Positions 2,064 to 23,143 of a stretch of DNA of 64,000 nucleotides are shown here, one piece after another. This stretch comes from Candidatus Poribacteria bacterium (GTDB lineage: Bacteria; Poribacteria; WGA-4E; WGA-3G), in the NCBI GenBank assembly GCA_003635315.1, contig PYJD01000025.1, forward strand, positions 1 through 64,000, given 5' to 3'. A model generated the notes under the pieces. The model worked only from the letters and a program-made list of their open reading frames with translations. It was not told the origin of the DNA and ran no database searches. Both the position numbers and the translations under genes were made by a program. Positions within the stretch are counted from its first letter, which is position 1. Each line of letters begins with the position of its first letter.

Positions 2064-2124
2064 GAATTCTATTATTGAACATCATAACAGATTATTGTAT
2101 CTATGACACATGGAGATGAGTTAG

Positions 2125-4318: not shown

Positions 4319-4347
4319 CAAACTTATATTTATGAGAGGCGTTTATT

Positions 4348-4578: not shown

Positions 4579-4749
4579 CCTGTGTCTGCTTATGCGATTA
4601 ACAGGTTTGAAGTGAAAGGTTGCTCGTAGTTATATAGGCACGAACATAAAAAATACCATTGACTTTATTCCAACATAAATCCCTTTTACCCGCAAAAGGT
4701 GATGCCGTAAAAGGTAAACTCTATTCATAGTATAAGGAGATATAGAACC

Positions 4750-5376: not shown

Positions 5377-5393
5377 AAATAGTGTGATGTGTG

Positions 5394-5748
5394 ATGTCAG
5401 CATCACCGAATATAGAAAACAACGAATACTACAAGATCATCGCAGAGATAACGGAAGTTTCCAAATACAAGGGTGTATGTGTAAAGAAGATCGGGAATCG
5501 GAGTTCCCTCCTACATATCAGATGTAAAGTTAGATGATTTGACTATTGATGGATTATTATATCTATACAAAATGAGTTCAGATGATATACTTCGAAGTCA
5601 GGTTCTCAAAATCCTATCTCATCAGAATAAAGAACGACTGGGTCTACTGTGGCGAGAAATTCTAAGACACCCATCTACAAGTAGCACAGCAGATAAGAAC
5701 ACTGCTATCTTTGGACTTGAATCAATCGAAATGTCACGAAAAGAATAA
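5394..5748 (+). pseudogene. Probable gene remnant interrupted by a dispersed repeat
   Basis: Two short frames meet here. One runs from ATG 5394 to TGA 5537 (47 aa). The other starts at a TTG at 5539, in a different frame, and ends at 5748 (69 aa, LLYLYKMSSDDILRSQVLKIL...). A copy of the GGGAATCGGAGTTCCCTCCTACAT repeat core lies between and across them at about 5491-5516. The second piece looks like an amphipathic helical repeat, somewhat HEAT-like. The simplest reading is a gene broken by repeat insertion. A genuine 69-aa gene starting at TTG is the alternative, though it has no good ribosome site. Confidence 0.3.
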
Positions 5749-5820
5749 GATTCCATTCCGCTTTACAATATAATTCGATATAGGGAAAATGAAATATTCA
5801 GATTAAGTTGCCTTTATGGA

Positions 5821-6771
5821 TTATCCTATTATATCTAATCCAGCGCGTTCACGGAATTTGTTATAGGTTTTAAGTATCCCTTGCTCCATTGTGTAGGCAG
5901 GTGTGAATCCCATCTCTTCTTTGATAGGTGTCGCGTCATAATCCCAAGAGATCCCGAATACACCCGGTTCAACCGTGATTTCCGCATCTGGAACTAAGGA
6001 TTTCAGGTATGCTACACCTTCTTGTACTGGTCGTATCCCACCCTTTACATTAAAAACGCGTGTATTCGTTGTGGGACAGGTACACGACATTATAATTGAA
6101 CGGGATACATCTTCCACAAACTGCCAATCTACGGCGTCATCACCAAAAGGACATACATGTGATTTGCCTAATGCGACATCCTCAATCATCTTTGTTGTAA
6201 ATGAACTCATACCTCGTGTTCTACCGACCCCATACACTGCAGTAAACCGTAAGCCAATTGAATCCACGCCATATTCATCAAAATAGTGTGTAGCGTATCT
6301 TTCACATAAGGATTTACACGCACCATATATGAACTTTGGATAATGGGGTGCATCGTTGTCTATTTGCTGGTAATTGTAATCTTCTGGTGAACCGAACACT
6401 GCCACACTACTTGCCCAAACAACCCGTTTTAAGTCGAAGATACGGGCAGCTTCAAGTATGTTTATTGTGCCTTCACAGACAACTTTTAGTGCTTGTGGAG
6501 GATTTGCATTGCAGGCTGGCACTTGCCAAGATGCAAGGTGGATAATACGGTCAATTTCATATTCCTGTATTGTACGGAGGATATGAGGTAGGTCAGTTAT
6601 GTCCCCTTGAACAAATGTGATGCCTTCTATTTGTTCATCAGACAAAACCATTTTTGGAATCGTTAGATCGTAAGCAAAATCGTAAACGATGACCATTTCA
6701 CCGGCAGCTAACAGATCCCGGATGACATAACTTCCAATACATCCCATACCACCGGTGAGTAGATATGACAT
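5821..6771 (-). CDS. NAD-dependent epimerase/dehydratase (extended SDR)
   Basis: The 316-aa protein fits the UDP-sugar epimerase branch of extended short-chain dehydrogenases, which oxidise and re-reduce nucleotide-sugar carbons. The N-terminal TGGMGCIG (residues 6-13) is the Rossmann dinucleotide loop. Y149xxxK153 (YGACK) is the catalytic pair and SSVAVFG around residue 121 supplies the Ser. I chose the ATG at 6771 because GAAAGGA lies about 10 bases upstream. A TTG six codons earlier would overlap that site. It follows the Rieske gene after 50 bp and the GGT-like gene on the same strand, so the three may be one transcript. The sugar substrate cannot be read from sequence. Confidence 0.85.
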   Translation of the reverse strand: MSYLLTGGMGCIGSYVIRDLLAAGEMVIVYDFAYDLTIPKMVLSDEQIEGITFVQGDITDLPHILRTIQEYEIDRIIHLASWQVPACNANPPQALKVVCEGTINILEAARIFDLKRVVWASSVAVFGSPEDYNYQQIDNDAPHYPKFIYGACKSLCERYATHYFDEYGVDSIGLRFTAVYGVGRTRGMSSFTTKMIEDVALGKSHVCPFGDDAVDWQFVEDVSRSIIMSCTCPTTNTRVFNVKGGIRPVQEGVAYLKSLVPDAEITVEPGVFGISWDYDATPIKEEMGFTPAYTMEQGILKTYNKFRERAGLDIIG

Positions 6772-6820
6772 ATCAATTTTTCCTTTCAATATACATAGTA
6801 TGTATAGAGTCTATTTTCTT

Positions 6821-7156
6821 TTATTGTGTTTCACCCTTATTAAGTGGTTCATCAACATTTACAAGGATATCCTCTCCTTCAACTTTAACAGCATAGGTAG
6901 GAATACTCTCTTCACCGGGCCAGACACATTCACCCGTTTTTACATCAAATTCCCACATATGCATTGGACAGGTAACACAGTTCTTATCCAAGAAACCGTA
7001 GGTTAGAACGCCACCGAGATGTGGACAAATATTATTCATAGCATAATACTCACCCTCAACATTGTAGATACCGATAAACACACCTTCGACTTTAACACCG
7101 ATACAGGTTCCAGGTTGGATTTGATCCGTTGTCGCGGCTTTAAAATATTCTGCCAT
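6821..7156 (-). CDS. Rieske [2Fe-2S] ferredoxin
   Basis: This 111-aa soluble protein has both Rieske boxes: CPHLGG (C44, H46) and CPMHMW (C63, H66), 17 residues apart. Two Cys and two His therefore ligate the cluster. Size and the acidic MAEYFKAATTDQIQPGT start match ferredoxin components of ring-hydroxylating or nitrite-reductase-like systems (NirD/BphF type), which pass electrons to an oxygenase. No oxygenase large subunit is adjacent. The nearest oxygen-using enzymes in the window are the PhyH dioxygenases, which do not need a ferredoxin. The partner is therefore unknown. Confidence 0.9.
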   Translation of the reverse strand: MAEYFKAATTDQIQPGTCIGVKVEGVFIGIYNVEGEYYAMNNICPHLGGVLTYGFLDKNCVTCPMHMWEFDVKTGECVWPGEESIPTYAVKVEGEDILVNVDEPLNKGETQ

Positions 7157-7243
7157 ATCTGAATTGTAACTCCATAACTATTGATAGATAGATTATTCTT
7201 CGTGTTGTTTATATACCACAAATATACACATTGAAATTACAGA

Positions 7244-8845
7244 TTACTTGCCTACTACCTTACCTTCACCTCGAGTGTCTGTACCACCATCGTGGTATTT
7301 TCCATCTTCAGATACTCGAATTACGTGTCCAGGACCACCAATTCCACCGCTTGGTGATACTTCATGTCCGAATTCTCTTACTTTTTCAATGACTTCATCC
7401 CCTGCCCTTGACTCAATCTGAATGGGTTCAGCGCCATCACTGAAAAACCTTGCGGCATCGAGAGATTCTTGGGCAGAAACTTTTAGATCTATGAGACCAA
7501 CAGTGATATTCAGTTGATTGTTTGGTATTGTACGTCCACCCGGAATACCGTATGTAGCAAATGGATTTCCATCAATTGTAGCCATACAGGGTCCCATATT
7601 ATGTAATGGTCGTTTTCTCGGACCAACAGAGTTAGCAAGTCCTGGTCTGGGATCGAATCTGCCTACCCCGTGACCAAAGAGTAGTCCTGTACCCGGAACT
7701 GTTACCATTGAGCCAAATCCGCCACCGTGTGTTTGTGTTAGGGACACCATATTCCCTTCAACATCGGCTGTAGAGATATGGCTTGTACAACTCATCGGTT
7801 CTTGATAGACGACTTCACCCGGTTGAGGGGATTCAAGACCAGATTTTAATTTTTCCGCAAGGGTTGCTGTGAAACTATCTGAGAGTTCTTCATCAATATC
7901 AATGTCAACGAATTCAGGATCACCGAAACGACTGAGTCTTTCAAACCAACATATCTTCATTGCTTCTGCAAACAGATGGAATCGTTCAGCGGGTGACATA
8001 TTGGCAATATCATAAGGTTCCACTAATCGGAGCATTTGTAGGGTGGTTAATCCACCTGCACCGAGGGGAGATGTATATACAGAATAACCACGGTAGTTGA
8101 TTTCATAAGGATCGGTGATAAATGCGCGATAATTTTTCATATCATCGTAAGTTATACAACCGCCTAATTCCTGTATGTGATCGGCAATTGTCTGTGCGTT
8201 TTTACCTTCATAGAAGGCTTCATGTCCACCTTCTGCGACTGCATCTAAAGTTTTTGCCAGGTCAGGGTTTGTAAGCACTTCACCCTTTTTTGGTGCTTCA
8301 CCATTTTTCAGAAAAACACGCGCAGTTTCAGGAAATTCTCTCTTCCATCTTTCAGCATTTCCAGCAATTCCTCCACGGTTTGCCCCATTTGGTGCATATC
8401 CGTACCGTGCGGAATTTATTGCCGGTCTCAGTGTGTCTTTTAGAGGAAGTGTACCATATTCCTTTAAAGTTAGACATAGTCCGGCAACAACACCTGGAAC
8501 ACCGATAGATAGCGGTCCGTGTACGTTTACACGTCCGGGTACACGGTATCCAGCAGCAGTATCAGGAGCATCTTCGATTGTGAACATATCCTCTGATGCG
8601 GCAGCGGGTGCGGCGGAATTATAGTCAATTGCAACTACATCCTTCGTTTTCTTTCGATATATGAGGACGCAACCTCCGTATCCTGCAATACCGTTGTGTG
8701 AGGGTTCTACGACACCTTCAGCAAATGCAGCAGCCACCGCGGCATCCACAGCGTTTCCACCAGCCAGAAGCATTTCCATACCGGCGTGTGCGGTTCTCGG
8801 ATGTGGACCAACAACTGTTCCATACTCTCTTTTATGTAATTTCAC
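7244..8845 (-). CDS. Gamma-glutamyltransferase family protein
   Basis: The 533-aa protein covers the GGT fold, an N-terminal nucleophile hydrolase that splits autocatalytically and transfers or hydrolyses gamma-glutamyl groups such as that of glutathione. GNAVDAAVAAAFAEGVVEPS near the N-terminus is the family hallmark. CTSHIS around residue 353 supplies the new N-terminal nucleophile, T354, at the expected cleavage point. GGG and PLHNMGP follow. There is no signal peptide, unlike periplasmic Ggt, so it may be a cytoplasmic YwrD-like member. Translation starts at a GTG after AAGGA. The upstream DNA is a 630-bp dispersed repeat whose other copy lies upstream of the LamG gene at 52331. Confidence 0.88.
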   Translation of the reverse strand: MKLHKREYGTVVGPHPRTAHAGMEMLLAGGNAVDAAVAAAFAEGVVEPSHNGIAGYGGCVLIYRKKTKDVVAIDYNSAAPAAASEDMFTIEDAPDTAAGYRVPGRVNVHGPLSIGVPGVVAGLCLTLKEYGTLPLKDTLRPAINSARYGYAPNGANRGGIAGNAERWKREFPETARVFLKNGEAPKKGEVLTNPDLAKTLDAVAEGGHEAFYEGKNAQTIADHIQELGGCITYDDMKNYRAFITDPYEINYRGYSVYTSPLGAGGLTTLQMLRLVEPYDIANMSPAERFHLFAEAMKICWFERLSRFGDPEFVDIDIDEELSDSFTATLAEKLKSGLESPQPGEVVYQEPMSCTSHISTADVEGNMVSLTQTHGGGFGSMVTVPGTGLLFGHGVGRFDPRPGLANSVGPRKRPLHNMGPCMATIDGNPFATYGIPGGRTIPNNQLNITVGLIDLKVSAQESLDAARFFSDGAEPIQIESRAGDEVIEKVREFGHEVSPSGGIGGPGHVIRVSEDGKYHDGGTDTRGEGKVVGK

Positions 8846-8928
8846 AAGTTTTCCTTAAGATGATAGTAATATGTCGCATTTTAAAGACAACGCCAAGAAT
8901 TGTCAAGTTTTTATCAGTTTCTAAGAAA

Positions 8929-9556
8929 TGATGATACATTACAGATTTATGCGGGATGTCATCTTATACTGTACAACCTGAAGGTTATGCCTAAAAAAGA
9001 GACATTTTTATTTAGAAATTGTGTTAAAACTGATAGTCGTAAATTGGACATTTAATCCTAATATCCAGACAACTGAATAGGGTGCAAAAACAAACCTTTA
9101 ATCTTAAATTCCCTGATGAAAAATCGTGTTGATGTTGGATTTTTCCATGTGGTGAAAAAGTGTCGAAAAAGTGAAAAATGTTACACTTTTTGACACATTG
9201 TGTGTCATTGAAATTGGTGTAAATTACCCCTCTAACCACTGTCATAGACTGACTTCACTCGACTTTAAAATAAATTTATAGAATTTTCAAAAAGTGTTAT
9301 TTTGTGTTTTGTTTTCCTTGCGAATTCTGACAATTCCCAGCTGCATAATATAGTTGATTTTTTGACATAAAGTCTTTTTATATTAGGGTTGTATTTAGGA
9401 TCGTTTTTATAGATAGTCATCATTAATTTTCTAATTATATACTTCTGATTTCATTTCCAGTTTGCGTTAAAAGATATACAAATTGGATGTTTGTACTAAA
9501 AAAGTAGCTTTTGGTAATGTTAGTTGTTAGCTATCGATATTTTCTTCATTTAATTT
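8929..9556 (-). repeat. Long dispersed repeat, copy 1 (inverted relative to 51652-52312)
   Basis: About 630 bp match 51652-52312 in the opposite orientation. Shared landmarks, read on the minus strand, are AACTAACATTACCAAAAGC, then GTCATTGAAATTGGTGTAAA read backwards, CCACATGGAAAAATCCAACA, GTCTGGATATTAGGATTAAA, and a final AATGTATCATCATT. Both copies contain an open frame of about 70 codons in the same place, but nearly all differences between them change the amino acid, so it is probably not coding. Both copies end just upstream of a gene (GGT here, LamG there). Confidence 0.75.
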
Positions 9557-9968
9557 CAATTTTTTAGAAAAATGTATGAAATCAGCATTTGGTAGTGTTT
9601 ACATTATAAACAAGTATTTTACTATCTTTGCAAGCTGATACCACTACTGAATGATTATCGCGCATTGCTCATTGTCTATAGAGATGTTAGTTTCTGACGA
9701 CACGCTTTTCACACTTTGGACATGATACTCTTTCCGTCTTTTTGCTGATGCTTGCTGGAACGCATACAGAGTCAACAACTATTGTCCTAATGACCGAGTG
9801 CCTTCTAAAATATGATGCTTTGCTTCATTGAACAACAGACAGTTCTGCTATCCCATCATCATTTTTTATTGTATTCATACGACCAATTTGCTATAATATT
9901 TCTATATGTAGAAATTATAAATGAAAATAGGTTAATATATATTATAAATATAAAAGGATAATTTCCAA
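9557..9968. other. Intergenic region at left edge of the Dnd island
   Basis: This is AT-rich sequence without an open frame I can support. It presumably holds the promoter for the small gene at 9969 and dndCDE. TTGCTATAATATTT at about 9889 resembles a -10 region, but I cannot assign a -35 box with confidence. Confidence 0.35.
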
Positions 9969-10310
9969 ATGTCAATAGACACGGTTACCCTACCCCCAGG
10001 ACATTATGTTATTGCTGACCCTAATTATTTTAAGGATTATGAACCTTATGCGTATTTTTGGACTGGTGGTGATGGTGGATTCTACGACAACTTTGATAAT
10101 TGCTATTATGTCGATTCTGCAAAGATATCAGTATTCCAAGTAGAAGATAAACTGCAAGATATTCCTGAAGGTACACACTACTTCTTCTTCAAAACGCCCT
10201 GGAGAATTGATTTTGATCAACATGCTCTATTAGAACAAATTAGAATTACAACGCTATCATTCAAAGATATTAGTCCTGATTTTTTCGAACCTATGGTTTT
10301 CGATAGTTGA
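9969..10310 (+). CDS. Small acidic protein of unknown function upstream of dndC
   Basis: This 113-aa product is rich in aromatic and acidic residues. It opens MSIDTVTLPPGHYVIADPNYF, which recalls, from memory only, a family of small phage/bacterial proteins beginning with a TLPxGxYxIGDPCY-type segment. No catalytic motif, signal peptide or membrane helix is seen. AAAAGGAT lies 12 bases before the ATG. It is 95 bp upstream of dndC in the same direction and occupies the position where dndB (or dndA) would sit in textbook dnd operons, but it has neither the DGQHR region of DndB nor a PLP-enzyme sequence. It could be an island-specific accessory or regulatory protein. Confidence 0.6.
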   Translation: MSIDTVTLPPGHYVIADPNYFKDYEPYAYFWTGGDGGFYDNFDNCYYVDSAKISVFQVEDKLQDIPEGTHYFFFKTPWRIDFDQHALLEQIRITTLSFKDISPDFFEPMVFDS

Positions 10311-10405
10311 TTTACTTTCGTACTATTTGTATCTGTTTTTTAATGTAAATGAAACTCTAATTTGCTACGAAGCGTTTTCTTTTATTTAAAGGAAGGTACG
10401 GAATT

Positions 10406-11818
10406 ATGGCAGAATCCTCTTACAGTATCTTTGAATCACGTACTCCTGAAGACATACACCAAGAAATTCAGCAAGTTTATCTTGAAAATGCACGTCCTTG
10501 GGTAATTGGATATAGTGGTGGAAAAGATTCCACAACTGCCCTTCAACTTGTCTGGTATGCTCTTGCTGAACTACCAGAAGAAGAACGAAAGTATCCAGTT
10601 TACGTGATCTCGTCAGACACCCTTGTTGAGACCCCAGTGATTGTTAATTATATTACTGGTACCTTGGAGAGACTTGAGGCGATTGCACGCGAACAGAAAA
10701 TGCCGTTTCAGACAGATATCGTCCGTCCGAAAACCGATGATACTTTTTGGGTCAATCTTATTGGTAGGGGGTATCCTGCCCCTTATACTCGCTTCCGATG
10801 GTGTACTGACCGAATGAAAATCCGACCAGCGAATAAATTTGTCTTGGACAAAGTTGCTGAACACGGTGAAGTTATTATGGTTCTCGGGGTTCGCAAGGGT
10901 GAAAGTACAACACGGGATCAGGTTTTAAGTTTACATAGCATTCAGAATTCTTTTCTATTGCGACATAGCTCCTTACCTAATGCCTTTGTATACGCGCCTA
11001 TCGTTGATTTCAGTTTAAACGATGTTTGGTTTTATTTATTGAATGTACCTTCACCATGGAATAACGATAATAAAGAACTTATTACACTTTACCGAAACAC
11101 AAACGCACAAGGTGAGTGTCCGTTGGTGGTTGACGAGACAACTCCATCATGTGGAAACAGCCGCTTTGGTTGCTGGACCTGTACCGTTGTAACAAAAGAC
11201 AAAGCGATGGAAGGTTTGATTGATAACGGTGAAGAATGGATGATGCCACTACTTGAATTCCGAGACTTTCTTGCAGAGACCCAAGATTCTGCAAGAAAAC
11301 CTGAAATCCGTGAATTCAGGCGGAGTAATGGTCAAATTACTATATTAAATAATAAACTTATTCACGGACCCTATACGCTGAAATTCTGCCAAGAACTCTT
11401 AGAAAAACTTCTCAATGTTCAAGAACAGGTACGTAAAGAAGGACCCGACCCTGAAATCAAGCTTATTACTGATGACGAACTTGAGGAAATCCGAAAAATT
11501 TGGAGAACCCAACGCCAAGATTGGGAAGATGCAGTACCACAGATTTACGCAGAGATTGTTGGGGATCGTGCCTGGGTCGTTGATGACACGACCTTCTTTA
11601 CTAAGAAAGATAAAGAAATCTTGGAATCGGTTTGTGCTGAAAAAGGAATTCCTGTTACCCTTGTTGCAAAGTTACTTGACACAGAACGACAAATGGATGG
11701 AATGAGTCGGCGTGCCAAGATACAATCCCGAATTGACGAAATTTTCCACGAAGACTGGCGCTCAGAAGAGGAAGCGCTCAACGAATTGAATAAACTAATG
11801 AACAATGATCCTCCATAA
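10406..11818 (+). CDS. dndC: DNA phosphorothioation protein DndC (PAPS reductase-like)
   Basis: The 470-aa protein belongs to the ATP-pyrophosphatase/PAPS reductase family. In Dnd systems DndC uses ATP to activate the DNA backbone for replacement of a non-bridging oxygen by sulfur. SGGKDST at residues 37-43 is the PP-loop. Conserved Cys at 133 (RWCTDRMKIRP), 238, 249, 256 and 259 (CGNSRFGCWTC) are the expected iron-sulfur ligands. AAGGAAGG precedes the ATG. The 3' end overlaps dndD by 14 bp, pointing to translational coupling. No cysteine desulfurase (DndA) is in the window. A housekeeping IscS could supply sulfur, as known in some dnd hosts. Confidence 0.93.
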   Translation: MAESSYSIFESRTPEDIHQEIQQVYLENARPWVIGYSGGKDSTTALQLVWYALAELPEEERKYPVYVISSDTLVETPVIVNYITGTLERLEAIAREQKMPFQTDIVRPKTDDTFWVNLIGRGYPAPYTRFRWCTDRMKIRPANKFVLDKVAEHGEVIMVLGVRKGESTTRDQVLSLHSIQNSFLLRHSSLPNAFVYAPIVDFSLNDVWFYLLNVPSPWNNDNKELITLYRNTNAQGECPLVVDETTPSCGNSRFGCWTCTVVTKDKAMEGLIDNGEEWMMPLLEFRDFLAETQDSARKPEIREFRRSNGQITILNNKLIHGPYTLKFCQELLEKLLNVQEQVRKEGPDPEIKLITDDELEEIRKIWRTQRQDWEDAVPQIYAEIVGDRAWVVDDTTFFTKKDKEILESVCAEKGIPVTLVAKLLDTERQMDGMSRRAKIQSRIDEIFHEDWRSEEEALNELNKLMNNDPP

Positions 11819-13817
11819 ACTCACCGTCAACAATGTCGGCTTGTTCCGTGGTCGGCAAACTATTACCTTCACTCCAAATACTAACAAACCTATAATCCTC
11901 ATTGGGGGGATGAACGGTGCTGGCAAGACAACCCTATTAGATGCAGTCCGCCTCTGTTTATATGGCAAACGTTCACTCGGTAATCGAATTAGCCATAATA
12001 AATATCACGATTATCTCTCCGAAATAATTCATCGAAGCCCATCTGCGAATTCATCTATCCACCATGCCTCTGTGTCCCTTGAATTTGAATATGCCCGTGA
12101 CGGTGAAAAAAGAAGACACAGGGTTGAACGCTCATGGAAAAAATCACAAAAAGGTGGTGAAACTGTTAAAGAAACCCTTACCATCTATGAAAATGATAGG
12201 TTAAATACTGAGTTTGAAAAAGAGCACTGGCAAGATTACATAAACGAATTGATTCCTATTGACGTTACCCAGTTTTTCTTTTTTGATGGTGAGAACGTTC
12301 GGAAGTTAGTCGATGATTCTGGCCATGATGTTTTTCTTAGAGAGTCGATTAAGGCGTTGTTTGGATTAAATTTAGTAGATCGATTGCAATCTGATCTGAA
12401 TATATACTTAAACCGTTTGGTTAAACGCGATAGTCCGGAATCAGTCCAAGAGAAAATTGCCAAAGTGGAATCTGAAATCGAAAATTTCAAAAGTAAACTT
12501 GTAGATGTTGAAGTTGAATCTGAAGACCTAACAACACAGGTTGACGAATTAGAAAATGAAATTGAGCAACAAGAACACCGACTTGCTGCCGAAGGTGGGA
12601 ATTATGCCCGACAACGCGGAACTTTCGAGCATCAACAGGAACAACTCCAAGCTAAAATTAAAGAATTGGAAAACAAACTTCAGGCTCAGTGTGAAGAACT
12701 GTTTCCCTTCACCTTAGCTCCAGAAAACCTAAAGCGGTTGAAAGCACAGTTACTTAAAGAACTACAATTAGGTGAGTGGGAAGCAAAAAATCATGCACTA
12801 AGAGCACACAGGGATTTATTACTTGCACACCTTCCATCCGAGGAATTTTGGGCAGACACCTCTTTGGAATCTGAACAAATTTCAGAGATTCAGGACAAAG
12901 TCGCCTTCTTGATAACAGAACAACTTGAATATCCAGAGGAATTACGCGGCTTCAAAAAAATCCGAGAACGTACACATGCAGAGTACGATATTTTATTAGA
13001 GTGGATTGATGTTTGTCTAAATAAGGTGTCACAAGAGTTTAGAGAATTAAACGGTGCTTTGGAGATTGCCCAATCAGAACTTCAAAAAGTAGAAAACGCT
13101 CTTCAAAAAGTACCTCCGGAGGATGTGTTAAAACCAATAATTGAGAACCTATCAGATTTAAATAAAAAACTGGGGCAACTACAAATACAAGAACATAATG
13201 TCAATGAAACGATGTGCTCTTTAAAAGATCAGATAGAAAAAGCTGAACAGAGATGGGAAATTTTACATCGCACCCAGCAGCAAAGACAAGCACACATCAA
13301 GCGTCCAAAACAGGTAGAGAATGTGAAGGCAGTCCTTGCAGAATATACAGTGCAACTCACGCAAACCAAGAATATTATACTGAGTGATGCCATCGTAAAA
13401 GGTTTCAATCAACTATCACACAAGCCAGATCGAATCAAACGCGTCGAACTTGATCCACAGACCTTTGCTGTGACACTATATGATACGCACAACCGTTCAA
13501 TTTCAAAGGATGAATTGTCAGCAGGAGAACAGCAAATTTACACGACAGCCCTCTTATGGGGATTAGCGAGAACTTCAGGTAAATCACTGCCAATGATCCT
13601 TGACACACCACTCGGACGTTTAGATACTATTCACCGTCAACTGCTTATTGAACACTATTTCCCTTATGTGAGTCATCAAACTATTTTGCTTTCAACTAAC
13701 ACCGAAATTGTAGGTGACCTATTATCACTGTTGACACCTTATATTTCACACACATTCCACTTGGCGTATCAACAAACTGAGGGACACACGACAATAGAGG
13801 AAGACTATTTTAGGTAG
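11805..13817 (+). CDS. dndD: DNA phosphorothioation protein DndD (SMC/RecF-like ATPase)
   Basis: The 670-aa ABC/SMC-type ATPase begins MILHKLTVNNVGLFRG. It has a Walker A GGMNGAGKTT at residues 34-43, a long central coiled coil (about 210-290 and 410-500), a signature LSAGEQQ near 571 and Walker B PMILDTPLGRLD near 596-607. This layout and the ~660-residue size are those of DndD, which supports DndC in sulfur incorporation, probably by ATP-driven DNA remodelling. Its start lies inside the end of dndC and it is followed 6 bp later by dndE, so the three form one operon. Confidence 0.93.
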   Translation: MILHKLTVNNVGLFRGRQTITFTPNTNKPIILIGGMNGAGKTTLLDAVRLCLYGKRSLGNRISHNKYHDYLSEIIHRSPSANSSIHHASVSLEFEYARDGEKRRHRVERSWKKSQKGGETVKETLTIYENDRLNTEFEKEHWQDYINELIPIDVTQFFFFDGENVRKLVDDSGHDVFLRESIKALFGLNLVDRLQSDLNIYLNRLVKRDSPESVQEKIAKVESEIENFKSKLVDVEVESEDLTTQVDELENEIEQQEHRLAAEGGNYARQRGTFEHQQEQLQAKIKELENKLQAQCEELFPFTLAPENLKRLKAQLLKELQLGEWEAKNHALRAHRDLLLAHLPSEEFWADTSLESEQISEIQDKVAFLITEQLEYPEELRGFKKIRERTHAEYDILLEWIDVCLNKVSQEFRELNGALEIAQSELQKVENALQKVPPEDVLKPIIENLSDLNKKLGQLQIQEHNVNETMCSLKDQIEKAEQRWEILHRTQQQRQAHIKRPKQVENVKAVLAEYTVQLTQTKNIILSDAIVKGFNQLSHKPDRIKRVELDPQTFAVTLYDTHNRSISKDELSAGEQQIYTTALLWGLARTSGKSLPMILDTPLGRLDTIHRQLLIEHYFPYVSHQTILLSTNTEIVGDLLSLLTPYISHTFHLAYQQTEGHTTIEEDYFR

Positions 13818-13823
13818 TGTACC

Positions 13824-14183
13824 ATGCATCTAAATCGGATTCACACTTCTGAAGATTCCCGTAATAAACTGAGTATCTTAAAATCGCGTACAGGATTATT
13901 ACCCAACGTTCTTTGTAGAATTGGGTTGATGTTATCGCTATCAGAACCTAACCAACCGGAAGTTGATATAGATGCGAGTGATGGTTCAGAATTTCATCGC
14001 GATACACTAATGGGAGAGTGGGATCCTTTGATTGTGGCATTGTTGGAAGAATGGTGCATTACCAATGGAAAAGGCACAGATAACGATACTCTTGTCAAAT
14101 ACTTCAAGGCACATCTGAATCGAGGGGTGCGTCTGCTGCATGTTAGAATAAAAGGGTTAAATGATTTAATGAACCTAATCTGA
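13824..14183 (+). CDS. dndE: DNA phosphorothioation protein DndE
   Basis: The 119-aa protein matches the small helical DndE family, thought to bind nicked DNA within the phosphorothioation complex. Recognisable blocks are LKSRTGLLPNVLCRIG near residue 20, FHRDTLMGEWDPLIVALL near 72 and AHLNRGVRLLHVRIKGLNDL at the end, which parallel the TGL.PN.LCR, LxGE and HLNRG segments of DndE. Its stop codon is only 11 bp from the stop of the convergent MBL gene, leaving no room for separate terminators. Confidence 0.9.
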   Translation: MHLNRIHTSEDSRNKLSILKSRTGLLPNVLCRIGLMLSLSEPNQPEVDIDASDGSEFHRDTLMGEWDPLIVALLEEWCITNGKGTDNDTLVKYFKAHLNRGVRLLHVRIKGLNDLMNLI

Positions 14184-14194
14184 TAGTATCAGAT

Positions 14195-15214
14195 CTACTT
14201 TCCCCATTCTCTTGTATATTTGTTCTCTGATGGTTGGGCATCAACACCTAACTCTCGCTTCAATGCTAGTGCCAATTCTACAGCATGTTTACCGCGACTA
14301 TTATCTGTTAATATTCTTCTTGCCTGAGTGGCGTGAACATATGCCAGGGTTTCATTATAATCAGCATGATCGGAAAGAGCAATACAAAATGCTTTTTCTG
14401 AATATTCTACTACCGGATTGTCAAAGCGACTCATATACGCACTCAATTTAATTGAAGTAGCATTACCTGTGTCTGTAGGACGTGGGTCCCCAGTTCCAAA
14501 AAGACGAATATACTTTCCTTTGCTCAGAATTAACTTAGCATTTTGCGTACTCTCATCAAGTATATCGGGAAGACCATACCCATGTTTTTGATATACTTGC
14601 CATTCACTAAATAACCGAGAGCTTGCGATGATTGGTTCATTTATAGCGTCATCTAAATAAGAAATCGCACGCTGTAAAGTTCCACGGTGAGCTAGAATCA
14701 ATATTGGTCCGAAATTCAGACGTTCTATGACTAACTCCACAAACCGATTATTTGCTTCTTCTTGAGAAAATTTACGGACTGAATCGGGAGATCCGTATGT
14801 GCTATCTAAAACTAATTCTTCTACTTCAATTACCTCTTCAAGAGGCCACGTAAAATCCCCAGAATATCCACATCGTAATCCATCAGTAGATATAACTTCT
14901 ACTTGTACAGAACCCAACATATGACCATTATTTAATAAGCGAACCTGAAAGTTATCGTGGGAAATCGACTGATTTAACGGAATTCCCACAAAGTTTGATC
15001 TATTAGGTAACACTGCGTTGAACTCATTAATCAACAAATCCCTAGTGGGATTACTCATAATAATATGCTGTACTCCTATACTTGAATTAAAACCTGACAT
15101 GTGATCTTTATGGACATGAGTTTGGACTCGAATTGGACAATCACTAATAAAGCCATCACAGGACACTACTTTATCAAGTATAACAGCCCCGGAAGCTGAA
15201 ACATCAATTCTCAT
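14195..15214 (-). CDS. Beta-CASP-like metallo-beta-lactamase nuclease
   Basis: The 339-aa protein has the zinc motifs of MBL-fold nucleases: THVHKDH (H33, H35, D37, H38), GHMLGS (H98), GYSGDFT (D120) and a late SDHADY (H283 region), the last typical of beta-CASP enzymes. Members cut DNA (SNM1/Artemis) or RNA (CPSF73, RNase J), and some prokaryotic ones travel with DNA ligases. It is the last gene of an SNF2-ParB-ParB-MBL operon (11 bp after the preceding gene, AAGGATT ribosome site) and faces dndE. In this context a DNA-end or strand-specific nuclease acting with the SNF2 motor is my inference. Confidence 0.85.
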   Translation of the reverse strand: MRIDVSASGAVILDKVVSCDGFISDCPIRVQTHVHKDHMSGFNSSIGVQHIIMSNPTRDLLINEFNAVLPNRSNFVGIPLNQSISHDNFQVRLLNNGHMLGSVQVEVISTDGLRCGYSGDFTWPLEEVIEVEELVLDSTYGSPDSVRKFSQEEANNRFVELVIERLNFGPILILAHRGTLQRAISYLDDAINEPIIASSRLFSEWQVYQKHGYGLPDILDESTQNAKLILSKGKYIRLFGTGDPRPTDTGNATSIKLSAYMSRFDNPVVEYSEKAFCIALSDHADYNETLAYVHATQARRILTDNSRGKHAVELALALKRELGVDAQPSENKYTREWGK

Positions 15215-15225
15215 ATAGTTAATCC

Positions 15226-15930
15226 TTAAAAACGTACCCCTTCAATAAGATATTCAGTTATGGTTTTCTCAAAATCATCGGATAGAGACATTACCTGACT
15301 ATGTAACTGGTCATCTCCAACTATAAGAAAATATCCATCACCGAGCTTAGTTCCAAACGGAGAAACATTAGGAAGATGTCGTTTTAGGACAGTTTGTAGT
15401 AGGTTATCACGTGTCAGTTGTGAAGCCTGATTTAATTTAGTTTTCAGTTCTTCACAACATAACTCTCCTGCAATCAGATGTCTTCTCTCAACTATTGGAC
15501 GTTGCTTCAAGACTGCCTTTATACAATTGTCAATAGATTCATTTGAACGTTGATGGATTTGAACTACTTGTATGATATCAGATTTGTTAAGTTGACTCTC
15601 TAATGCTGCTTTTGCTAAAGTAATTTGATCCTGAGAGACTTCTAGACGAGCAATCTCTGAAGCAGCATAGAAAGAAAGGGAAGTTGGATCAGAACCCCAA
15701 TTGATCAAACGCCGAACTTGGATAGGGAGAGATAGGAGACGGAGAAAGCGTCCAATCATTGAAGTTCCTCTAAGGTGAAGTCTCTCAGCAATCTCCCCTC
15801 TTTTTTCTCCAGCATCCAAAACCTTTTGCAAATATTTAGCCACTTCAACTGGTGAAAGTGCCCGTTCTGTCTTATGTGTACCTATAGATAGGATAAGCTG
15901 ACGAGTTTCAAATGGTGACAAACCCTTCAT
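15226..15930 (-). CDS. ParB/HTH-like protein of the Dnd-linked operon
   Basis: The 234-aa protein lacks the ParB CTPase/nuclease domain but has a central part resembling the ParB helix-turn-helix: LSPVEVAKYLQKVLDAG, then IAERLHLRGTSMIGRFLRLLSLP (about residues 48-70), then LSFYAASEIARL. Its ATG overlaps the stop of the upstream ParB gene by four bases (ATGA), with GGAGAT as ribosome site, so the two are translationally coupled and probably work as a pair. The C-terminal ~100 residues are not recognisable. A DNA-binding specificity subunit is the most natural role, but this is inference. Confidence 0.65.
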   Translation of the reverse strand: MKGLSPFETRQLILSIGTHKTERALSPVEVAKYLQKVLDAGEKRGEIAERLHLRGTSMIGRFLRLLSLPIQVRRLINWGSDPTSLSFYAASEIARLEVSQDQITLAKAALESQLNKSDIIQVVQIHQRSNESIDNCIKAVLKQRPIVERRHLIAGELCCEELKTKLNQASQLTRDNLLQTVLKRHLPNVSPFGTKLGDGYFLIVGDDQLHSQVMSLSDDFEKTITEYLIEGVRF

Positions 15931-16760
15931 ATTATATCTCCATTTTCTTCGTACCCACTACTTGATAATCCATCTTCAATTAATTGTGCAGCTGCCTCGT
16001 CTACGGTAGTATTTTCAGCACTCGCAAAGCGTTTTAATGACGCATGAATTTGATGTCCAAGAGTAACAACAATTTGTGTTACTCTACCACCACTCTTGGC
16101 ATCTTCTACTACTTCATCTACAGATGTATTAGGTTGATCTCTCAGTTTCTTTTGAACGTTTTTTCTCTGTGCTCCACTCATTCCAGTCATTTCCTTCGCA
16201 AGTTTTAAACATTCTTGTGGGTCTAAGTTACCTTCAACGGCAAGTGCGTCCTGGGTGCGTAGGGCAGCATTTAAGTCAACATCTCCTTCGTCAACAACCT
16301 TTTTTAGCTCTGGAATAAGACGATCATATTTAACATAATCGCTAACTTTTTCAGATGAAAGTCCTGTTTCCGTTACTACCGCATTCATTGACCCATAATG
16401 CTTATAGAGGTATGTACATACGTCAATTAGATCCTTGCGGTTTAGATCGCTACGAACAAGGTTTTCAGTTACTGATAAGACTTTTGCCTCAATTTCTTCA
16501 ATATGTTCGTCAAGTATTCCAGCCATAATCGTTTCTTCTTGTAGTAGACGATGAGCTAGATACCGTCTTTGACCCAGTATAATTTCATATTTTCCACTAG
16601 GTCCAAGGGGAGACACTAATATAGGTTCTAATAGCCCTACTTTACGGATACTATCCACAAGGTCATCAATATCTTTATCAATATTACTTAAACGGACCTG
16701 TCCCCTACCAATTTCCAATTCTTTTAAAGGAATATCCTTAAATTCAACTATCTTTGCCAA
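15927..16760 (-). CDS. ParB/Spo0J-like protein
   Basis: The 277-aa product begins with a ParB N-terminal domain: DIDDLVDSIRKVGLLEPILV, then LGQRRYLAH (residues 62-70; ParB normally GERRxxA) and ENLVRSDLNRKDL near 98. A ParB-type HTH region follows (TGLSSEKVSDYVKY). The C-terminus, VTLGHQIHASLKRFASAENTTV, looks like a ribbon-helix-helix. The Gln in place of the usual Glu in the GERR box may alter the CTP or nuclease chemistry. Translation starts at TTG after AAGGAG. There is no ParA nearby, so plasmid partition is unlikely. ParB-like proteins also occur in DNA-modification islands, which fits here. Confidence 0.8.
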   Translation of the reverse strand: MAKIVEFKDIPLKELEIGRGQVRLSNIDKDIDDLVDSIRKVGLLEPILVSPLGPSGKYEIILGQRRYLAHRLLQEETIMAGILDEHIEEIEAKVLSVTENLVRSDLNRKDLIDVCTYLYKHYGSMNAVVTETGLSSEKVSDYVKYDRLIPELKKVVDEGDVDLNAALRTQDALAVEGNLDPQECLKLAKEMTGMSGAQRKNVQKKLRDQPNTSVDEVVEDAKSGGRVTQIVVTLGHQIHASLKRFASAENTTVDEAAAQLIEDGLSSSGYEENGDII

Positions 16761-16817
16761 CTTTAATCTCCTTATAATTTACTAATTTCTAATCATGTGA
16801 TTTAACATAATAATCAC

Positions 16818-18188
16818 TCATAATAATTCAGATATTTCAAGAATTTGTTCCAATAATTCTCTACTGAACCACGACTTATCTGCGTTAGTAGCAGTTTCAA
16901 TGTAATTTTCAAATAACTCCTGTTTTTCGGTCAGAATATCTGAAATTCGTTCTTCGATAGTATCTGAAACAATAAAACGAATTACGTGAAGTGGTCTTTT
17001 CCTTCCAAATCGATGAGCACGCTGGATAGCCTGATTTTCAAGAGCAGGATTCCACCATCTGTCAAATAGCACTACGGTAGAAGCTTCCTGTATATTAAGA
17101 CCTACCCCACCAGCTCTTAACGAAATAAAAAGACAACGTGGTCCCGGATCATTTCGAAATCTATTCAATATCTCTTCCCTTTCTAATTGAGTTAATCCAC
17201 CATGATATATCTCCAGAGGAATACCTTCTATCTGTAATGCTAGCCAATTTAATGTATCAACATATTGAGAAAAAACAATAACCTTATCATCATCAGCAGT
17301 TTGGACATCAAGGAAATCAATGAGAACATTGAGTTTGGCAGATTCTCCCGACTCTTTATCATAATTACAAACCTGTTTCAGTCTTGTAATTATAGAAAAA
17401 AGGTTTGTAGAAGAAAAACCATCGGTACTGATTTCTAAACCTTCTCTTCGACAATCCCATGCCCTTAGATAAGCATCTTGTTGTTTACCTTGCAATTCAA
17501 TTGGGATTTCTTGGTCAATAATCGGTGGGAGATCTTTGAGAACATCACGTTTGCAACGACGGAGAAAATGGGGACGCATTTGAGAGTGAATTTCCCCTCT
17601 TGACAATCCCTGATGAAGGACTCCTATTTTAACAAATCGAAATAATGAAATAAGGTCGTTGAGTTTATTCTCAACTGGGGTTCCGGTAAGTGCCCAAGAT
17701 CGTTTTCTCTTTATGACCCTGCATGAGAGTGAAGACTTTGAATGTGGATTTTTTATTCGTTGCGCTTCATCAAGCACAACAACATCAAAATCTATTTCGT
17801 TTGAAATATTCATCATATCTAATCGAATTTCTTCGTAAGATACAATCAATACATTTATAGGTAGTAAATAATAAGTCCTACGATCAGCTGTACTACCCCG
17901 GATTCTCTGGACTGAGAGACTCGGAGCCCAACGACGTAATTCAGTCTCCCAATTCAACTTTAATGATGCAGGTACAACAACCAAAGATCTATATAATTGT
18001 TGTTTATGCCAAAGGATTTCCAGTGAAACAGCCACTTGGACTGTCTTCCCAAGTCCCATCTCATCTGCAAGTAGTGCCCCTTCACTTTGAACTAGAAATT
18101 GTATTCCTTCCCATTGATATGGTCGTAATTCAAAAGGTAAGTTTAGACTATCTTTCAATTGAGCTTCTAATTCCATATGTTCTCTCAT
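16818..18188 (-). CDS. SNF2-family DNA helicase/translocase
   Basis: The compact 456-aa SNF2 ATPase has ADEMGLGKT (41-49), VVLDEAQRIKN (DEAQ at 140-143), a WALTGTPVENK motif III, then SLRAGGVGLNIQEAS and QAIQRAHRFGRKRPLHV (motifs V and VI). The DEAQ box replaces the common DEAH. It is little more than the two RecA lobes, lacking extra domains of Swi2/Snf2 remodellers or RapA. It is first in a four-gene minus-strand operon (57 bp before the ParB gene). Presumed role: ATP-driven translocation on dsDNA for the nuclease partner. Confidence 0.9.
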   Translation of the reverse strand: MREHMELEAQLKDSLNLPFELRPYQWEGIQFLVQSEGALLADEMGLGKTVQVAVSLEILWHKQQLYRSLVVVPASLKLNWETELRRWAPSLSVQRIRGSTADRRTYYLLPINVLIVSYEEIRLDMMNISNEIDFDVVVLDEAQRIKNPHSKSSLSCRVIKRKRSWALTGTPVENKLNDLISLFRFVKIGVLHQGLSRGEIHSQMRPHFLRRCKRDVLKDLPPIIDQEIPIELQGKQQDAYLRAWDCRREGLEISTDGFSSTNLFSIITRLKQVCNYDKESGESAKLNVLIDFLDVQTADDDKVIVFSQYVDTLNWLALQIEGIPLEIYHGGLTQLEREEILNRFRNDPGPRCLFISLRAGGVGLNIQEASTVVLFDRWWNPALENQAIQRAHRFGRKRPLHVIRFIVSDTIEERISDILTEKQELFENYIETATNADKSWFSRELLEQILEISELL

Positions 18189-18810
18189 AATTGATACTAA
18201 AAACAGAATAAATTAACATAACAGTATATCTAATTAATGTAAAGTCTTAATTCCACTTAAAAATCGTCATGCCACTTGATAAACATGTTAGCAAAAGTAC
18301 TAGACTCTCGCAAGAGTAAATGGTAACGTCATCCATTGAAATCTATTCTCGCTCTTGTGGTGAACGGATTGATGTGAGGCAAAGGAGGTACATCTATGCC
18401 AACTTAGGCGCGTCGACAAACAACACTTGCAAAAGCACTCGGTTTACACATAAGAAAACACTTTGATCTACAACGCTTCACAATCTCTTGAAGATATTTT
18501 ACCATTTGTATCAATTATTATCTTATTACCGGTTGTTAGGTATAAAATAGGGAAAGCACAAACTGACAGTTTATGCTACAGAAGAGAGGTATTATATATC
18601 AGAAATGGTATTAGTTAATGATATTGACCCTAAGTTAATGGAGGATAAATAAGTCAAAACTACATAAATTACATACCGCGTAAGTCCTGTTCGTGAAATT
18701 TGTGCAAAATCGTAATGGAAATATTACAATAGAAAATTGTATAATAATCAACATAGATACCCTGAAAATTAATCTATTTCAAATACCCAACTATATTTAT
18801 AGGATGTATT
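18189..18810. other. Intergenic region at right edge of the Dnd island, with dispersed repeat
   Basis: No gene is seen. The promoter of the SNF2 operon should lie at the left end. From about 18515 to 18620 there is a repeat whose reverse complement matches 49030-49096: a TAGCATAAACTGTCAGTTTG hairpin, GTGCTTTCCC, then CCTAACA and GGTAAT blocks. It is followed by a family B element end (TCAGAAATGGTATTA). A GCGTAAGTCCTGT block near 18679 also recurs at 49004. Confidence 0.6.
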
Positions 18811-20061
18811 ATGACCTCGAATGAAATATATACGCACAATCTTTACAATAATATACAACTGGAACATGAGCGAAAAAATATAGATGATTGTATAGAAAAC
18901 TTGTTGGCTATTGGGAAGGCAATTCAAGCTTATCACCATGACCATGATGATTTTCCTGAGTGGCTCTCCAACCTGCAACCCAATTACTTATCAGATAAAC
19001 AGATATTGGTGTGTCCTGCAGATGAAATGTGTGGAGAGACTGTTGCATTTTTCAATGCGGATCCCAAAAAGCAGATAAGTTACGAATACCAATTCCATCC
19101 AAAATACCGCGAGATTAAAAGTGCTGAACGGCAATTATATGGTGATGCGATTCCTCTTGTCCGATGTAGACATCATGGCTATATAGAAAATGGATGTCTG
19201 AACCTTAGTTTTTCTTTTAAGGTCTATAGATCCTTACAAATTTGGGAATCGCAACCAGAAGACATTTACGGTACAACCGAAGCAGCTGTTGATGCCTTAG
19301 AAAACGGACTTCAGAACTCAGTATTTAATGCAGATTTACAAAATCATATTTATACTGCTCTTAGTCGTCTTTATATGAAACTTGGTCGAGAAAAAGAGGC
19401 AGATAGTATAATTACCCGTTATAAATCAGTTATTCCCAAGGATAGTATTTGGTGTCATTTAGTATTAATATCAATGCTTGAATTGAGACATCGTCATGAC
19501 GAAGTCTTTTCAGTTTTAAAAGAACTGCAGCAACGGTTTCCTGATAATTACCGAGTTCTAAATAGATTTGCAGAAATGCATTGGAATCAAGGTAATTTTG
19601 AATTGGCAAAGGAATATCATTATAAGGTAAACTCAGATCCAGACTTGATAGGTAAACCTGTATCAAATTTTTCAGCAACAGATCTTGATGGGAATGGAAT
19701 TTCACTTCAGGATTATCGTGGTAAAGTTGTTTTACTAAATTTTTGGGAGATCGGATGCGGGTTTTGTCGAGAAGAGATGCCTAATATAAAGAAGGTTTAT
19801 GATACATATCAAGGTAAAGGTTTTGATGTTATTGGTGTCAGTCTCGACATAGATGAAGTGTTATTAAGGAACTATCTTAAAGAGAATGGCATGAGGTGGA
19901 GACAGATTTATAGTGATAAAGGGGATGAGGGTCCGCTTGTTAAGAAATTTAAGATTACAAGTCTTCCAACACCATGGCTCATTGACAGAAATGGAATACT
20001 TATCTCAACAGACGCAAGAGGGATAGCATTAGAGAAATTGGTTGAAGAATTAGTGGCGTAG
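18811..20061 (+). CDS. TPR protein with C-terminal TlpA-like thioredoxin domain
   Basis: The 416-aa protein has three parts. Residues 20-110 (LLAIGKAIQAYHHDHDDFPEWL ... LVCPADE) resemble the periplasmic part of pseudopilin/DUF1559-type proteins but lack the prepilin helix. Residues 140-290 are helical with TPR-like repeats (IYTALSRLYMKLGREKEADSII). The C-terminal 140 residues are a TlpA/ResA-type thioredoxin: GKPVSNFSATDLDGN, VVLLNFWEIGCGFCREEMP with a CGFC redox pair, and the cis-Pro loop ITSLPTPWLID. TlpA proteins usually sit outside the membrane, yet no signal peptide is seen at this start, so either the domain works in the cytosol or the start is misplaced. Confidence 0.75.
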   Translation: MTSNEIYTHNLYNNIQLEHERKNIDDCIENLLAIGKAIQAYHHDHDDFPEWLSNLQPNYLSDKQILVCPADEMCGETVAFFNADPKKQISYEYQFHPKYREIKSAERQLYGDAIPLVRCRHHGYIENGCLNLSFSFKVYRSLQIWESQPEDIYGTTEAAVDALENGLQNSVFNADLQNHIYTALSRLYMKLGREKEADSIITRYKSVIPKDSIWCHLVLISMLELRHRHDEVFSVLKELQQRFPDNYRVLNRFAEMHWNQGNFELAKEYHYKVNSDPDLIGKPVSNFSATDLDGNGISLQDYRGKVVLLNFWEIGCGFCREEMPNIKKVYDTYQGKGFDVIGVSLDIDEVLLRNYLKENGMRWRQIYSDKGDEGPLVKKFKITSLPTPWLIDRNGILISTDARGIALEKLVEELVA

Positions 20062-20183
20062 ACGAATCAACGCCAAATACGCGTGTGGCAACTCTGTATG
20101 TTGTTATACTTTTTCTATAAACATTCCGTCCCTATGGAACTCCCTATGTGTTGTATATGCTTTTGCTATAGACATTCCGTCCC

Positions 20184-21137
20184 TTAGGATATTGGGTTGG
20201 ATTTTGGTTTCAAGACAAATAGGTATGTGAAGAGTAATACGCCTGTTACTGCTCCAAAAGCGATTTTGAATGCATTAGGTAAATTAGACGGGGATATAAA
20301 ACCTTCAATTAAACCTGCGAGGACAAGTAAAATGACACATCCTCCAAGCATCTGTATTGCTATTTTTGCAGCATTGATAAGTGTGCGTTTTCGTGTGAGA
20401 ACAGTTGGCGAAATGAGAGCATATCCTAATCTCATCCCAGCACCACCCGCTATAAATATCATGGTAAGCTCAATATATCCGTGCGGTGAGGCAAAAGACC
20501 ACAATGCTAATGATACGCCATGCACATGACATAAACCGCCAATTGTTCCGATGAATATACCGTTATAGATAAGTATATATACAGATCCTACCATGAATAA
20601 CATTCCCCAAGCAAATGCCAGAAAAGCCACTCTTATATTATTTGTCATGACTTTAGATGCTAATAGATTTCTATATTCTGCTTCAGTGTTATTCCAATCG
20701 GTTGCCCCTAATTCTTTTATGTGTGATACGATCTCCTCAGGGATCAAATCCTCAGTGAATTCTGGTATTTTCACTGCACTCCAATATGCCCCAGCAAAAG
20801 CTAATCCAAACAGAAGAAAAGCAATAGCTACAAACACTATATTCTCTCTGATCACCTTTGGGAATCCATCTCGGAGAAAATGCCAAACTGATCCACGTTT
20901 GAATGGTGAGGATTGGTATACTTTGGAATGTGCACTGGATGCCAATTCATTAAGGTAGGTTACACATCGGTCTTGTGGATAGTCCCGTCGTGCTACGGCT
21001 AAATCTGATGTGATCCGTCGGTATAAATATCCGAGTCTATTTAGATCATCTGCTGATGCTTTTTGATTGTTTTGTAGTAGACTCTCTAATTCGTTCCAGA
21101 GCGGTTGTTTCTTTTCGATAAAATCTGTGACTGACAT
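20184..21137 (-). CDS. SpoIIM/DUF95 family membrane protein
   Basis: The 317-aa multi-pass protein has a ~100-residue cytosolic N-terminus (FIEKKQPLWNELESLLQ; LYRRITSDLAVARRDYP). It then has at least five transmembrane helices and the family loops GGLCHVHGVSLALWSFASPHGYIELTMIFIAGGAG (cut here for length). These match the stage II sporulation M family, widespread in non-sporulating bacteria and often encoded with RDD and MoxR/DUF58 genes. An RDD gene does lie 1.2 kb away, separated by a PhyH gene. I chose ATG 21137, with GGGAA upstream, over a TTG four codons earlier. Confidence 0.85.
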   Translation of the reverse strand: MSVTDFIEKKQPLWNELESLLQNNQKASADDLNRLGYLYRRITSDLAVARRDYPQDRCVTYLNELASSAHSKVYQSSPFKRGSVWHFLRDGFPKVIRENIVFVAIAFLLFGLAFAGAYWSAVKIPEFTEDLIPEEIVSHIKELGATDWNNTEAEYRNLLASKVMTNNIRVAFLAFAWGMLFMVGSVYILIYNGIFIGTIGGLCHVHGVSLALWSFASPHGYIELTMIFIAGGAGMRLGYALISPTVLTRKRTLINAAKIAIQMLGGCVILLVLAGLIEGFISPSNLPNAFKIAFGAVTGVLLFTYLFVLKPKSNPIS

Positions 21138-21440
21138 GTGTATTCCCAATTTTAGATTGTCTCAGTTTAGATCTATTGCAAATACATTATATCATTTCTG
21201 AGAGATATTATGACATATAAACATCATTCACCAAACCCGGGGAATGCCTAAGGATTGTTTTCCCTAAATTGACGACTGGGGAGCGGTTCCAAACCGCTCC
21301 TACCTGTCTTGGGTTCACGATGGATTACCTGGGTAAGATTGTATCGTATGTAGAATTCAGTATAATTGGTATGAATCTACTATAGGATATGGTATTATAT
21401 TCAGTAGGTCAGTGTGAATGAAAGGAGTAGCCACTTTTTG

Positions 21441-22259: not shown

Positions 22260-22314
22260 GTGTAGGCATGAATTTTAATAGGTCACTTGAATTTTACATA
22301 AGATTGTGTGTGTA

Positions 22315-23097: not shown

Positions 23098-23143
23098 GAA
23101 TCCATTGATCCAGTAGGAGTTTGTATAGGTATGGATCTATTAC

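Follow-up and report, generated by a model that had tools for sequence, protein, structure and literature searches.

A ParB/HTH-ParB/β-CASP module beside phosphorothioation genes: a candidate nuclease effector of Dnd and Ssp loci

Introduction

Does an operon that lies tail to tail with the DNA phosphorothioation genes dndCDE supply the effector half of a phosphorothioate (PT)-based defence system? This question is raised by a locus of a Candidatus Poribacteria bacterium (GCA_003635315.1), situated at 9969-18188 of a 64,000-nucleotide stretch of contig PYJD01000025.1 (positions 1-64,000; hereafter, the window). The operon, which we call the module, encodes an SNF2-type ATPase, a ParB protein, a second ParB-like protein with a helix-turn-helix (HTH-ParB) and a metallo-β-lactamase (MBL) of the β-CASP type. 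We propose, with a probability of roughly two in three (0.68), that the trio of ParB, HTH-ParB and MBL, often with SNF2, is a PT-guided nuclease effector of a PT-based defence system. On our best reading, the module would be portable, with ParB and HTH-ParB as the reader, MBL as the cutter and SNF2 as an optional motor. This proposal is carried by the module's linkage to two unrelated PT machineries, the conservation of the trio, the intact nuclease motifs, the place beside dndC and the failure to find a full DndH.

The dnd genes and the convergent operon

On the plus strand of the locus stand dndC (10406-11818; a PAPS-reductase-like sulfurtransferase), dndD (11805-13817; an SMC/Rad50-like ATPase) and dndE (13824-14183; a DNA-binding subunit, matched also by PF08870). 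The first-pass annotation of this DNA had called all three genes clear. Indeed, each exceeds its curated NCBIfam equivalog cut-off: 574.4 bits vs. 290.4 for TIGR03183 (DndC), 518.8 vs. 245.85 for TIGR03185 (DndD) and 91.3 vs. 71.85 for TIGR03184 (DndE).

The module occupies the minus strand. The first gene to be transcribed, SNF2 (16818-18188; 456 amino acids), encodes the core of a superfamily 2 (SF2) ATPase (PF00176, SNF2-rel_dom, E 4.2e-49; PF00271), and 57 bp separate it from ParB (15927-16760; 277 amino acids), which matches PF02195 (ParB_N, E 1.4e-13) and TIGR00180 (66 bits vs. a cut-off of 58.45). ParB overlaps HTH-ParB (15226-15930; 234 amino acids; PF17762, HTH_ParB, E 2.8e-06) by 4 bp, and after a further 11 bp comes MBL (14195-15214; 339 amino acids), a β-CASP nuclease as judged by its predicted fold and motifs. 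The two gene sets are convergent, with only 11 bp (14184-14194) between the stop codons of dndE and MBL. These coordinates and family matches bear out the earlier description of a convergent four-gene operon that encodes a motor, a ParB-like protein, a second ParB/HTH-like protein and a β-CASP-type nuclease.

The dndA, dndB and dndFGH genes had been described as absent. None was noticed by eye among the window's open reading frames (ORFs; inspected down to 80 amino acids in 5000-24000, 100 in 1-5800 and 250 in 24281-64000, with family-library scans covering the proteins around the locus), and a search of the whole genome with the PADLOC DndH model was also empty; no genome-wide search for DndF or DndG was made. 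None of the genome's five matches to the DndA model lies on the window's contig (C25), and its best cysteine desulfurase, on contig C41, scores 410.5 bits, under the DndA cut-off of 480. Thus, DndC would need an IscS-type enzyme as its supplier, an arrangement reported for IscS-DndBCDE (PMC11662687). Clustering of the ORFs in 2001-26000 of the window gave neither PbeA (HKD plus SF2) nor a second DndD-like ATPase. Among the four module proteins there was no DUF262-plus-HNH protein of the SspE/DndI type (Pfam and PADLOC scans) and no FtsK match (Pfam scan).

Relatives of the module and their sulfur-modification partners

Scanning one genome per species with an MBL profile (two short peptide patterns) yielded 16 loci. 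Eleven encode close relatives, 45-68% identical over at least 334 residues, and together with the window they make up a set of 12 loci from Poribacteria, Gemmatimonadaceae, Gemmataceae, Acidimicrobiia, Propionibacteriaceae and Rhodobacteraceae. The set excludes the remaining five (L021-L025; 25-27% identity), in which ParB, HTH-ParB and SNF2 are all without a match. ParB and HTH-ParB adjoin MBL in all 12 loci.

What, then, stands beside the trio? The partners are dnd genes in eight loci, SspABCD in two, a PT-associated methyltransferase in one, and a PAPS-reductase-like gene with a cysteine desulfurase in one. The Dnd-linked loci are the window, L010, L011, L012, L013 and L018 in Poribacteria, L017 in Gemmatimonadaceae and L015 in Gemmataceae. 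All eight contain dndC and dndD (the latter cut by the contig end in L015), and seven contain dndE. L015 also carries dndB and an HNH protein alongside the trio, and SspC elsewhere in its genome. The Acidimicrobiia locus L014 encodes SspA, SspB, SspC and SspD, each with a PADLOC model match of E 8.3e-100 or lower; L019 has the four Ssp genes in the same order, with protein identities to L014 of 70, 57, 62 and 77% and an SspC score of 1055.6 bits. The 10-kb Propionibacteriaceae contig of L016 bears the methyltransferase (TIGR04096, 528.7 bits vs. a cut-off of 150), and SspC lies on another contig of that genome.

The Rhodobacteraceae locus L020 differs in its gene content. There, PDC-M33A/B/C-like genes (E 5e-32, 7.4e-10 and 1.9e-05), a PAPS-reductase-like gene and a cysteine desulfurase gene follow the trio in the same direction (L020:11797-18075). 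The PAPS-reductase-like protein (444 amino acids) matches the SspD model at E 3.7e-08 and reaches 17.2 bits in Pfam, under the cut-off of 22.5. No DndC or SspC match was obtained in the L020 genome, and the name "PDC-M33" is absent from the literature searched. This gene set is possibly a third sulfur-modification machinery.

Module and partner are convergent in the window, L010, L013 (with 3.2 kb between them) and L018, which are Dnd-linked, and in the Ssp-linked L019; they are co-directional in L011, L012 and L017 (Dnd) and in L014 (Ssp), and divergent in L015. The best indication of a functional connection is that linkage persists through such differing layouts and with two unrelated machineries. 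The PADLOC DndH model found no match in 11 of the 12 module genomes; it did match a DndH-like protein in genome G077, at 41.3 bits.

The suggestion that the operon is a recurrent partner of PT genes in place of dndFGH was thus upheld. The operon might have proved to lie mostly away from dnd genes, or dndFGH just outside such loci; neither was seen, with DndF and DndG not searched genome-wide. Its description as a partner of dndCDE was sound as far as it went, and the range is wider, with Ssp genes beside two of the 12 loci.

The reading of the operon as motor, reader and cutter also needs amendment. The cutter is supported by fold and motifs, but SNF2 is not a necessary motor. Its gene adjoins ParB in seven loci (the window, L011, L012, L014, L016, L017 and L018) and not in L010, L015, L019 and L020; the contig of L013 (genome G072) begins 241 bases before ParB. 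Genome-wide searches gave no close SNF2 (E <= 1e-90) in G019, G088 and G089, nor in G072 with its early contig start, and one close SNF2 (392.7 bits) on another contig in G085. We therefore rejected SNF2 as a universal member of the module.

In a tree from the joined trio alignments, the Ssp-type and PDC-M33-type loci fall inside the Dnd-type loci; good support is limited to two of the 10 inner branches and the outgroup sits on a very long branch, so that no count of partner switches is drawn from this tree. Pairwise distances among the three trio proteins are correlated (r 0.90-0.94), which may reflect common descent alone.

A more distant operon with the order SNF2-ParB-HTHParB-MBL was encountered in genome G463 (L086:1260-5284). 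Its SNF2, ParB and MBL are 43, 29 and 26% identical to those of the window, and its HTH-ParB is up to 32% identical (best E 1e-26). By eye, its neighbours look schlafen/AlbA-like and RNase J-like.

The module proteins

Against Pfam, the window's MBL gave only sub-threshold matches. The PADLOC-DB 2.0.0 collection has no model that matches this protein or HTH-ParB at E up to 1. The predicted structure of MBL is a β-CASP nuclease fold, as in the TIGR04122 ligase-associated DNA exonuclease, SNM1/Artemis and CPSF73, with a resemblance to the repair nucleases SNM1A and Artemis. Its metal-ligand motifs are intact (HxHxDH, H, D and the H of motif B). It differs from TIGR04122 in score (61.3 bits, under the cut-off of 325). 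At the motif C position, Asp is found in all 12 close members and in L086, whereas three of the five remote relatives aligned have His and the other two are unclear.

ParB comprises a ParB N-terminal domain, an HTH region and a C-terminal tail, has Noc/ParB as its relatives in the PDB, and bears GQRR at the position of Noc's GERR. Its alignment (A7) holds 10 of the 12 sequences, since the gene is split between frames in L014 and L019; that of SNF2 (A4) holds three. HTH-ParB lacks the ParB N-terminal domain; it pairs an HTH DNA-binding domain like that of ParB/Noc with a C-terminal α/β part. The mean predicted local distance difference test score (pLDDT) of its model is 88.6; its best Foldseek matches are ParB/Noc chains (best E 1.4e-3), with a TMt of 0.81-0.83 to the Noc DNA-binding domain.

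dnd loci within Poribacteria

Does the module take the place of other effectors? Among 84 genomes of the Poribacteria phylum, dndC exceeds its cut-off in 27. The module occurs in six, all of them within those 27 (hypergeometric p 0.0007); the module scan gave 10 matches at E <= 0.001, from which those in G054, G056, G058 and G082 (19.8-26.1 bits) were not counted. According to ORF clustering, dndC is accompanied by all or part of the PbeABCD-like set in nine loci, by HNH genes in 10 and by the module in six, two loci being untyped, and no locus holds two complete sets. No weight is placed on a chance figure for the three partner types being disjoint, as its 25 loci had been selected by having a type. 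The PbeABCD type is exemplified by L076 (PbeA 821.5 bits, PbeC 420.8 bits); the contig of L072, of the same type, retains no more of the set than a fragment of PbeC and the DndE-like gene. HNH-type loci carry an HNH_2 protein (scanned in L068). The untyped loci are L047, on a 3.2-kb contig, and L085, whose dnd genes are of another type and are accompanied by an Orf5/HEC-06-like protein and a DndH-like one. TIGR03238, the NCBIfam model for DndH, matched none of the 84 genomes, and the controls gave no match either.

Flanking genes of clusters c2, c4 and c5 are common to several loci of all three types, suggesting one chromosomal place; the window and L007 are without these flanks. In L068, from the window's own genus, an orphan ParB that is 71% identical to the window's lies beside the HNH gene, and looks like the remnant of a swap.

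Proposed function and alternative readings

How might the module work? The dndCDE genes, with a cysteine desulfurase encoded elsewhere, would constitute the marking half. ParB, as a putative nucleoside-triphosphate-dependent clamp, and HTH-ParB would load on DNA and read the presence of PT marks. On unmarked incoming DNA, SNF2, where present, would move or remodel the DNA and MBL would cut it; PT marks on host DNA would release or block the reader. We thus infer PT sensing, cleavage of DNA (not RNA), complex formation, a direction of control and an anti-phage effect. More tentatively, and with rather less confidence than an even chance, the same ParB/HTH-ParB/β-CASP core may serve not only Dnd and Ssp but also a third sulfur-transfer machinery, so far unrecognised, in L020. 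It would then be a cassette indifferent to the maker of the mark, and a restriction system in which a ParB clamp reads the backbone mark and the β-CASP nuclease cuts.

The mark is read to spare self by DndFGH, DndI and SspFGH, and it switches on SspE (PMC11662687, PMC8092258). The sensor of SspE and DndI is a ParB-like-superfamily domain (PMC11662687), and by this analogy ParB is the proposed reader. Toxicity in a PT-free strain is reported for DndI (PMC11662687) and for SspFGH (PMC8092258). Within the effector reading, then, the direction of control could run either way. That PT protects self takes the larger share, a little under an even chance. The module may instead be silent without PT and switched on by the marks, or act as a suicide nuclease upon phage interference, which we consider unlikely. 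SspE needs PT for activity and DndI does not, so either logic exists, and the GQRR of ParB is close to DndI's DGQQR (PMC11662687). The present data do not separate the two logics, and we favour protection of self.

Readings other than an effector appear improbable. ParB and HTH-ParB might regulate or position the dnd operon, with MBL and SNF2 repairing PT-related DNA damage: ParB_N plus HTH resembles the Noc, Spo0J and KorB regulators and partition proteins, the MBL fold is like that of SNM1A and Artemis, and dndB was not seen in the window. Yet within Poribacteria the module takes the position held elsewhere by PbeABCD-like or HNH genes, it recurs with Ssp although a dnd regulator is not expected to swap to unrelated machinery, and L015 combines dndB with the trio. 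Still less probably, the operon could be a mobile or defence unit in its own right that only happens to occupy the same defence islands as dnd. The module's patchy distribution and the existence of L086 would suit such a unit, but all 12 close loci adjoin a sulfur-modification or PT-associated gene, and no MBL relatives were found in the plasmids, phages and viral contigs searched (41 pattern matches in viral contigs, none confirmed). We accordingly rejected carriage by mobile elements.

Several observations weigh against a PT-guided effector. Neither dndC nor SspC was matched anywhere in the 1.0-Mb genome of L086, which leaves room for other partners in the wider family. In G088, one of the module genomes, DndH is matched in part at 20.6 bits, and a second SspC is present. 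The ParB gene is broken across reading frames in both loci linked to Ssp, through either gene decay or an error of assembly. The family is also scarce: with a threshold of E <= 1e-25, one genome has it among 298 from the phylum to which the Gemmatimonadaceae genome belongs (the one already known), and three have it among 395 from the class of the Acidimicrobiia genome (two already known, the third holding the divergent L086). Relatedness among the Poribacteria loci, and the short contigs of several, mean that the 27 do not count as independent, complete trials. Exclusivity fails once outside that phylum, in L015, where the trio stands with an HNH protein that belongs to the Poribacteria family and is 37% identical to that of L068. 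Motif C of β-CASP proteins is usually His, or Val in the SNM1 branch; with an invariant Asp there, the chemistry of MBL may differ. Finally, the β-CASP fold is shared by DNases and by RNases such as CPSF73 and RNase J.

Relation to known systems

DndFGH resembles the module in placing effector genes, a nuclease and a motor, beside Dnd modification genes. It differs in its DndH, which is of the HerA/FtsK kind and for which the module genomes have no match beyond the one partial hit in G088. PbeABCD (CxC ABC-ATPase systems) adjoins dndCDE in nine other Poribacteria loci and also combines an SF2 motor with a nuclease; there, the HKD nuclease PbeA is fused to the helicase and is joined by the ATPase PbeC and the DndE-like PbeD (PMC10853773), whereas the module has separate SNF2 and β-CASP MBL proteins, plus two of the ParB type. 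SspE and DndI, like the module, adjoin PT genes and have a ParB-like-superfamily domain whose motif is related; in them PT sensing is known. They are single DUF262-plus-HNH proteins (PMC11662687), unlike the module's classical ParB_N plus HTH with a separate nuclease and no HNH. SspFGH is likewise a multi-gene effector set and lies beside Ssp genes, but SspF carries a Walker A motif and the end of SspH is FtsK/SpoIIIE-like (PMC8092258; letters assigned by us from gene order), whereas the module lacks an FtsK match; this comparison rests on description and not on an SspFGH model.

SNF2-type and ParB-like proteins are also used in 7-deazaguanine (Dpd) islands, and the first-pass annotation had seen in this a hint of a shared theme. 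That kinship was not borne out: ParB matches no Dpd model in PADLOC, and SNF2 shares only the helicase core with the longer DpdE.

Among the matches listed in our literature searches, there was no description of an MBL/ParB/SNF2 effector beside Dnd or Ssp. One survey lists HKD, HNH, REase, URI, HEPN and PIN nucleases (PMC10853773); a word-start search of its main text gave no "MBL", "beta-lactamase" or "CASP", and its supplement could list the module. The module thus looks like a new effector module for PT-based systems and, if our reading is true, a β-CASP MBL nuclease joins the effector classes proposed for PT-based defence. The presence of the same effector beside Dnd, which marks double-stranded DNA, and Ssp, which marks single strands, would let one ask what the reader recognises. 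ParB/CTP systems work as a clamp that spreads along DNA. With PT marks filling just a fraction of the sites open to them, it is a puzzle how they are read as self (PMC11662687); such spreading would be a natural answer.

Further features of the window and of related loci

Upstream of dndC, on the plus strand, lies a conserved ORF of 113 amino acids (orf113, 9969-10310; cluster c10) that matches no known family; it falls within the span of the locus but had gone unnamed in the first-pass annotation. Its cluster is present in seven of the 27 Poribacteria dnd loci (three module-type, three PbeABCD-type and one untyped). Because it precedes dndC in PbeABCD-type loci too, it goes with dnd, and we rejected it as a module gene. 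The C-terminal stretch of DndC (residues 402-447) matches PF20306 (Sp-DndD), according to Pfam a small protein of certain Dnd systems; there is also a weak PbeB match.

Repeats on both sides of the locus had been taken as marks of a transferred unit. No such repeats were found. Matches within 8800-19000 are imperfect and no longer than 33 nucleotides; 1-30000 has no tandem arrays, and its sole repeats of at least 45 nucleotides belong to a local duplication at 1454-2835. Repeats thus do not support transfer. The duplication comprises two adjoining copies of a gene for a secreted-looking protein (1325-2838; DNA 79-84% identical). A scan for promoters and terminators offered no usable signal, with 47 promoter-like sites vs. 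a shuffle mean of 33.6 and seven terminator-like sites vs. 5.5.

Some HNH-type Poribacteria loci have reduced dnd genes: the best dndD match in L059, L074 and L075 is merely 20-30 residues long, and tblastn found no full dndE in the 10 HNH-type loci, some of which are on short contigs, with a fragment kept in L079. Genes like those of the cyclic-oligonucleotide-based anti-phage signalling system (CBASS) are found in such loci as well (L079:12754-14449, L074:7110-8574 and L068:5363-6259); they encode an SMODS nucleotidyltransferase (scanned in L079) and an SLATT_4 effector (scanned in L068), those in the other loci being cluster mates. A HATPase_c_3 protein of about 530 amino acids with a partner of about 370 recurs in module- and PbeABCD-type dnd loci (L005:5989-8716, L072, L078 and L081).

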